A stretch of DNA of 55,099 nt from a bacterium. Its GTDB lineage: Bacteria > Patescibacteriota > Minisyncoccia > UBA6257 > JAGOQP01. Made by a program: the position numbers and the translations under genes. Location of the stretch: positions 1-55,099 of the forward strand of contig JAJXZH010000024.1 of the NCBI GenBank assembly GCA_021780155.1, given 5' to 3'. Below, one piece after another: positions 30,768 to 31,682 of this stretch. The notes under the pieces were generated by a model. It was not told where the DNA came from. It saw only the letters and a list, made by a program, of their open reading frames with translations, and made no database searches. Within the stretch, counting starts at the first letter, position 1. The number at the start of each line of letters is the position of its first letter.

Positions 30768-31682
30768 ATGTATAGCAAAGAATTTTTTATACAAAGGTCT
30801 TTTGAAGTTGTTTGGGCGGTTTTTAGGGTCGCCGAACACACAACCAGACAAAAAATAAAACAAGGTCTCGAAGACAAGGCGGTTGATTATTTATTGGCAA
30901 AGGATTTGATGACTTTGGATGGATTGGAAGAGGTTGTTCGCCTTTCGGGACAAATAAAAGAAATCAATCAAATAAATACCAGTGTTCTTTTGAGAGAAAT
31001 AGGAAATTTAAGAGCGGCGATGTTGGAACTTGATGGCACCCAGAGAAAACAACTCGCGTCGGCCATCACTCCGGAAAATGCGCCAAAAATTGAAGAAGTC
31101 TTTTCTCGTCCGCCGATGAGAGTTTCGGATTTGATAGAAATTATGAAAAAGAGCGGTTTTGAGATAAAAGAAAGTAAGGTGGAAGAAAAAGAACCGGCTC
31201 CAAAAGATTATTTGGAAAAAAATTTATTGGAAACAAACAAATCAACGCAGACGAATAATATTTATTTTGGCAAAAGTCCGGCAAGGGAAGAAATCAATTT
31301 TGTAAAGGAAAAGCAGGAAGAAATTAAATATGAGCATAAAGAGTCCGGCAAGGAAGAAATAAATAGTCCGGCAAGGGAAGAAAGTCCGGCAACTGCCAAT
31401 CTAAATAGTCCGGCAAGGCAGGAATCCGGCAAGGAAGAAATAAAAAGTCCGGCAAGCAAAAAAGATAGATTTGAAGCTATTATTGGTTTTAAGGAGAGAA
31501 ACTCAATTATAATGGAGGTTTTAAACAAGAGATCTCTTTGCCATACCAAAGATTTAGTTGATGCTTTGCCGAATATCAGCGAAAGAACGGTAAGATACGA
31601 CATTCAACGCCTTGTTGATAAGGGAATAATAGAGAGAGTCGGTACTGGTGGTCCCAATTCGTTTTTCAGAATCAAAAAATAA
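30768..31682 (+). CDS. HTH (DeoR-like winged helix) protein with SPAREE-repeat linker
   Basis: C-terminal RNSIIMEVLNKRSLCHTKDLVDALPNISERTVRYDIQRLVDKGIIERVG; linker KSPAREE..ESGKEEINSPAREESPAT..NSPARQESGKEEIKSPASK. Confidence 0.75.
   Translation: MYSKEFFIQRSFEVVWAVFRVAEHTTRQKIKQGLEDKAVDYLLAKDLMTLDGLEEVVRLSGQIKEINQINTSVLLREIGNLRAAMLELDGTQRKQLASAITPENAPKIEEVFSRPPMRVSDLIEIMKKSGFEIKESKVEEKEPAPKDYLEKNLLETNKSTQTNNIYFGKSPAREEINFVKEKQEEIKYEHKESGKEEINSPAREESPATANLNSPARQESGKEEIKSPASKKDRFEAIIGFKERNSIIMEVLNKRSLCHTKDLVDALPNISERTVRYDIQRLVDKGIIERVGTGGPNSFFRIKK

Follow-up and report, generated by a model that had tools for sequence, protein, structure and literature searches.

The iterons of phage lambda lie in the middle of the O gene, and in related phages two extra iterons add 13 residues to the O protein (PMC7466680). 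The gene examined here encodes a 304-aa helix-turn-helix (HTH) protein (30768..31682, + strand) of the window, the whole stretch of 55,099 nucleotides that was analyzed. It is like lambda O in having an array of sites in the middle of its own ORF that codes for extra residues, here those of a linker; its own product would be the putative binder, and by analogy the layout of the array may work like that of lambda O. Unlike lambda O, to which no sequence relation was found (the HTH protein family gave no Pfam match to phage replication O proteins at E ≤ 1), the HTH protein has its DNA-binding domain at the C-terminus, the word is 10–11 bp, and the system includes a second array at the chromosomal parS/origin region; any part of the HTH protein in initiation is putative. 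Chromosomal ParB–parS systems are the other close comparison. In Bacillus subtilis, a parS site is also found within spo0J/parB. As in these systems, the word occurs at the origin, where it forms a fixed-spacing composite with parS, but a Pfam scan found no ParB_N domain in the HTH protein, and the word is asymmetric and dissimilar to parS. Little seems to be known about origin organization in Patescibacteria, and literature searches linking Patescibacteria with parS, ParB, oriC, DeoR or GC skew returned nothing on the HTH protein or the word.

The HTH protein is composed of a four-helix N-terminal domain, a linker predicted to be disordered, and a C-terminal DeoR-type winged helix. In AF2 models of 24 orthologues, the helical bundle (residues 1–100) and the winged helix (240–304) were confident, and the intervening residues (about 139–235) were of low confidence. 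Like DeoR-family regulators, the window protein has a winged helix matching HTH_DeoR (PF08220, E 9.8e-9, above the Pfam cut-off), a family matched by all 24 orthologues tested at E ≤ 1. Unlike them, it gave no match to the DeoRC C-terminal sensor domain in the Pfam scan, the HTH is itself C-terminal, and the remainder of the protein is instead a four-helix bundle at the N-terminus and a long linker. The modeled bundle has a structural likeness to 2gsc (Xcc0516), with a weak Foldseek E of about 0.02 and a TM-score by target of about 0.63–0.69, and 1 of the 24 orthologues has a weak match to PF05635 (E 0.014); these weak Foldseek and Pfam matches may point to a relation with four-helix bundles of the 23S rRNA-intervening-sequence or bAvd type.

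Seven words of the form A[AG]TCCGGCAA are located in the linker, all on the + strand and in one orientation. Five are copies of AGTCCGGCAAG, at 31275..31285 (read as SPAR, in SPARE), 31342..31352 (ESGK, in ESGKE), 31365..31375 (SPAR, in SPARE), 31407..31417 (SPAR, in SPARQ), and 31446..31456 (SPAS, in SPASK); the remaining two are AGTCCGGCAAC at 31383..31393 (SPAT, in SPATA) and AATCCGGCAAG at 31423..31433 (ESGK, in ESGKE). The SPA reading thus applies to 5/7 words and ESGKE, in another frame, to 2/7, and one 23-bp unit occurs twice in tandem in almost identical form. An earlier note on this DNA had described seven such units with SPA or ESGKE readings, had placed them between an N-terminal helical region and a C-terminal winged helix, and had pointed out that the SPA frame recurs in yraN; the sequence, the AF2 models and the occurrence of EKSPASYPHLAGLK in yraN agree with it on all three points. 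The seven-word stretch is presumably a disordered linker, to judge from the models. Matches to the word with at most one mismatch number 14 in the window compared with 0.37 in shuffled sequence, which excludes chance, and AGTCCGGCAA occurs six times in the HTH ORF versus a mean of 0.33 after synonymous-codon shuffling (maximum of 3 in 2000 shuffles). TCCGGCAA alone is common (160 matches genome-wide) and was excluded from the evidence. The note's suggestion that linker length may vary between strains holds between species, and word number varies there too: same-family HTH orthologues range from 253 to 327 aa, and three species of one genus have 7, 5, and 5 CCGG-type words.

In the 707,709-bp genome, the exact 11-mer AGTCCGGCAAG occurs nine times, and 9/9 copies fall in two clusters within the window. 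The HTH gene holds five of them, and the other four lie at 3296-3993, where there are three more copies with one mismatch. This second cluster spans 0.7 kb upstream of and inside a yraN homologue (3740..4195, + strand), with three perfect parS sites interleaved. The copies upstream of yraN and their interleaving with parS had escaped the earlier note. Two words on the − strand (3296..3306 and 3327..3337) are followed by a perfect parS palindrome, TGTTTCACGTGAAACA, at 3552..3567. The second perfect parS (3606..3621) has a 14-bp core separated by a 15-bp gap from the word AATCCGGCAAG at 3636..3646 (+ strand). A copy of AGTCCGGCAAA on the − strand (3671..3681) ends 5 bp before the core of the third perfect parS (3686..3701), whose 14-bp core is again followed, after a 15-bp gap, by AGTCCGGCAAA at 3716..3726 (+ strand). 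Within the yraN coding sequence, which is overlapped by origin words and a DnaA box, two inverted words (3962..3972, + strand, and 3983..3993, − strand) form the left and right arms beside a consensus DnaA box, TTATCCACA, at 3973..3981 (+ strand). Both strands carry origin copies, most of which lie outside genes. Further landmarks are dnaN (8510..9631, − strand; named from sequence and position) and dnaA (9797..11176, − strand; DnaA confirmed by Pfam search), the latter about 6 kb from the cluster. ParB is encoded apart from the HTH gene, at G000:C10. In G005, the one closed relative, the cumulative GC-skew minimum at about 124 kb coincides with the parS sites (124647, 124874). Its seven copies of AATCCGGCAAT are distributed as three at this minimum, two in the HTH gene (187 kb), and two elsewhere, in a genome of which 72 kb is masked. 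ParB was not found in G005, an absence that was left out of the evidence because of the masked 72 kb. The three parS sites, a DnaA box, dnaN and dnaA nearby, and the GC-skew minimum of G005 make it very probable that the yraN/parS word cluster is the replication origin/centromere region.

The position of the word relative to parS is conserved. In 18 pairs from six genera, the words face away from parS across a gap of 14–17 bp, a range set after the distances had been seen; in 5000 trials, randomly shifted words gave a mean of 1.2 pairs and never more than five genera (p = 2e-4). The genomes concerned are G000, G001, G002, G004, G006, G010, G011, G012, G028, and G054. At origins, the word is often succeeded by another in tandem, and in G028 the words interleave with parS repeats. 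The spacers between parS and word differ in sequence between genomes and, therefore, the parS–word element is not one copied block. Variant parS-like palindromes, GTTTAGCGCTAAAC, were seen in G051:C8 (L246 5653-5802), where they lie beside words upstream of yraN; their sequence suggests altered ParB specificity in the G051 lineage.

HTH orthologues were identified in 40 of 61 genomes (own genome included) by single-sequence search and in 41 by profile; most genomes compared were drafts. Orthologues were also identified at 67 public loci, and those with names belong to Candidatus Paceibacterota and other Parcubacteria including Wolfe-, Harrison-, Lipton-, Jorgensen-, and Colwellbacteria. Across the ORFs of the 67 loci, the word family A[AG]TN[CT]GGCAA occurs 295 times, in all six frames, compared with 36.7 expected from synonymous-codon shuffling. 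The same DNA word encodes SPA, ESGK, VRQ/IRQ or, from the reverse strand, LPD. In the linker part, word density reaches 15.5 per kb. The 250 bp upstream of the gene have 1.9 words per kb, about 28 times the background of about 0.07 per kb in distant flanks, and density falls to near background downstream. Throughout the order, the array is confined to the HTH gene and is absent from flanking genes. Lineages differ in which variant dominates (AGTCCGGCAAG, AGTCCGGCAAT, AATCCGGCAAT, AATTCGGCAAT, AATGCGGCAAT or AATACGGCAA), several families have few words, and the two-place pattern with a drifting word is kept across an order. In G017 (10/10) and G051 (8/8), copies of AATCCGGCAAT are found only in the region of the HTH gene and in a single origin-type cluster. 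The G052 copies (10/10) are divided between the HTH gene region and the contig with the origin, and one lies about 5 kb from the parS cluster. Where gene and parS share a contig, a requirement that biases the set, they are about 21–105 kb apart. A phylum-wide search returned mostly matches to the winged-helix part alone. Ten loci were examined for the family beyond the order (L256 and L258 proved to be same-order), and an ORF was obtained from four of them; three of these lacked CGGCAA cores, and L256 is the G017 gene itself, with 15 cores.

The words in the gene and at the origin drift together. HTH ORFs share 533 9-mers with the parS/yraN region of their own genome versus a mean of 270 with the origins of other genomes (18 genomes; permutation p = 5e-5, and p = 2e-4 with one genome per family). 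The genome's own origin ranks first in 7/18 cases, and the rest are contested by close relatives. The clearest case is G028, in which AATACGGCAA is found at the origin and in an HTH gene about 105 kb from parS. Covariation between winged-helix residues and word letters was also run; it was not used as evidence because it is confounded by phylogeny. The presence of origin words follows that of the gene: among genomes with canonical parS clusters, two or more strict words lie near parS in 14/17 that have the HTH gene and in 0/7 that lack it (Fisher 3.5e-4), an association that depends on few independent events since the HTH-lacking genomes are few and partly related. All seven of the latter encode ParB, and strict words are few or absent in their parS regions. 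In one of these seven, G006, a variant word, AGTCCGGAAA, stands at the right spacing from parS, and no HTH gene was found in its 90%-complete assembly; both genus mates have the gene, which may be missing from the assembly rather than from the genome.

From these comparisons, AGTCCGGCAAG and the other words of the A[AG]TNYGGCAA family are probably binding sites of the HTH protein, present at the origin and in the protein's own gene. The HTH protein is the natural candidate for the binder, since the array accompanies its gene and the origin words track that gene and not ParB; a single binder for both places would be the simplest reading. At the origin, the HTH protein would bind words at a fixed distance and orientation beside the parS sites of ParB and near DnaA boxes, acting with ParB to build or position an origin complex. 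It would also bind the array along its own gene, which could be tolerated there because it encodes a disordered linker, and oligomerization of the N-terminal bundle would allow one complex to hold several words. The sites in the gene might feed back on expression, provide a second anchoring point about 20–105 kb from the origin, or both. We infer the HTH protein as binder, its oligomerization, and a role in segregation, initiation control or autoregulation. The placement of the words suggests the last of these, and their enrichment upstream with a fall to near background downstream fits autoregulation. Binding with autoregulation had been offered in the earlier note as an alternative; binding is favored here, and the other target, the origin with its parS sites, had not been seen. 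Evidence counting against a binding-site reading comes from extra word clusters away from yraN/parS in G033, G047, and G025, from the variant word at parS in G006, from the coding-strand bias of the ORF words, and from the families with few words. More tentatively, the HTH protein may be a second centromere or origin protein in Paceibacterota that binds a composite parS–15 bp–word element beside ParB and has an in-frame array in its own gene, with gene and origin bridged or co-regulated and with site and array co-evolved across the order; we hold this fuller proposal with some doubt.

Alternatively, the binder of the word could be a different origin protein, such as ParB making an extra contact, DnaA or some other factor, and the HTH gene could host a second array merely from its proximity to the origin. 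A second ParB contact of the kind made with P1-type boxes could account for the fixed spacing from parS, and a DnaA box does lie between inverted words. We nevertheless consider this unlikely, given that ParB is present in 7/7 HTH-lacking genomes whose parS regions are poor in words, that across the order the array is in the HTH gene and not in its flanking genes, and that the G028 gene has the matching variant despite its distance from parS. ParB as the sole binder is disfavored by the same word-poor genomes, which still have ParB. The HTH protein might instead be an ordinary autoregulated transcription factor, for which the origin words are operators of the yraN operon or its neighbors with no role in replication or segregation. 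Its DeoR-type HTH, the word enrichment upstream near its start, and the G033 cluster preceding a membrane-protein gene are in keeping with this. The proposal is quite unlikely in view of origin words that are positioned with respect to parS, alternate with parS repeats in G028, and reach into the yraN coding sequence, and of HTH-gene sites that mostly lie hundreds of base pairs inside the ORF.

The remaining explanations concern the array as a repeat, a peptide or an RNA. The earlier note favored a mobile or slipping DNA repeat spreading into tolerant coding regions, and the near-identical 23-bp tandem units and the differences in word number and linker length between species are of the sort it predicts; new copies may indeed arise by local duplication. 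As a whole it is very improbable: the nine exact copies occupy two loci with none elsewhere in the genome, the same two loci are used with a different variant in other families, and the spacing from parS is fixed. The whole-genome count refutes a genome-wide dispersing repeat, and a DNA-uptake sequence scattered by transformation was dropped on the same grounds, the exact word being in two loci only. That the array reflects a low-complexity protein linker of SPA/ESGK motifs with biased codons is scarcely credible, even with a linker predicted to be disordered, since one DNA word gives differing residues in six frames at an 8-fold excess over synonymous shuffles (67 loci). The note had named diverse codons with conservation of amino acids alone as the pattern that would contradict its repeat; conservation was found at the DNA level. 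Finally, the words could act in the HTH mRNA, for example in translational feedback or as hairpins. The ORF words are biased 253:43 toward the coding strand, a skew that might reflect selection on the RNA or no more than coding constraints. An RNA element is highly improbable all the same, with origin copies that use either strand and lie mostly outside genes, and with no RNA-binding domain seen in the HTH protein (Pfam scan); the seven in-gene copies of the window share one orientation and therefore do not pair with each other.

The binding-site reading provides a testable origin-associated protein, a candidate DNA site, and a composite centromere element, and the gene is a natural case of DNA words retained within a coding sequence, in the part that specifies a disordered linker. 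Near yraN, the cluster of words and parS sites is also a landmark for locating origins in these genomes. Outside these two places, six words were seen upstream of and inside the membrane-protein gene of G033 (L250 4779-4968; G033:C3, about 13.3 kb), which looks homologous to the divergent neighbor of the HTH gene at 29929-30516 and by its sequence is a possible further target of the HTH protein. Intergenic palindromic clusters, AATCCGGCAATGCGGCAATTGCCGCATTGCCGGATT, occur at L247 5425-5476 (G047:C5) and L248 293-334 (G025:C25), and yraN is not adjacent in the fetched region.

The surroundings of the HTH gene are partly conserved. A homologue of the large surface-type protein encoded downstream (32771..36016, + strand) is near the gene in 60/67 loci, almost always directly downstream, and clpB is within the fetched stretch in 50/67, mostly upstream. 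A reverse-strand DnaA box (TGTGGATAA on the + strand) lies at 30693-30701, some 67 bp before the start of the HTH gene. The surface-protein gene is flanked at 32181-32332 and 36207-36362 by tandem copies of a TGGAATGACA...CATCCCG-type repeat (units of 43 bp and 83 bp), which may represent a family of dispersed palindromic repeats. Elsewhere in the window, a short ORF near ruvC (5478-5741) has an extremely acidic Asp/Glu run. Contig 1 of G005 contains, at about 51.8–52.5 kb (locus L126), a repeat array whose unit includes AATTTCTACTTTTGTAGAT and resembles a Cas12a-type CRISPR repeat.
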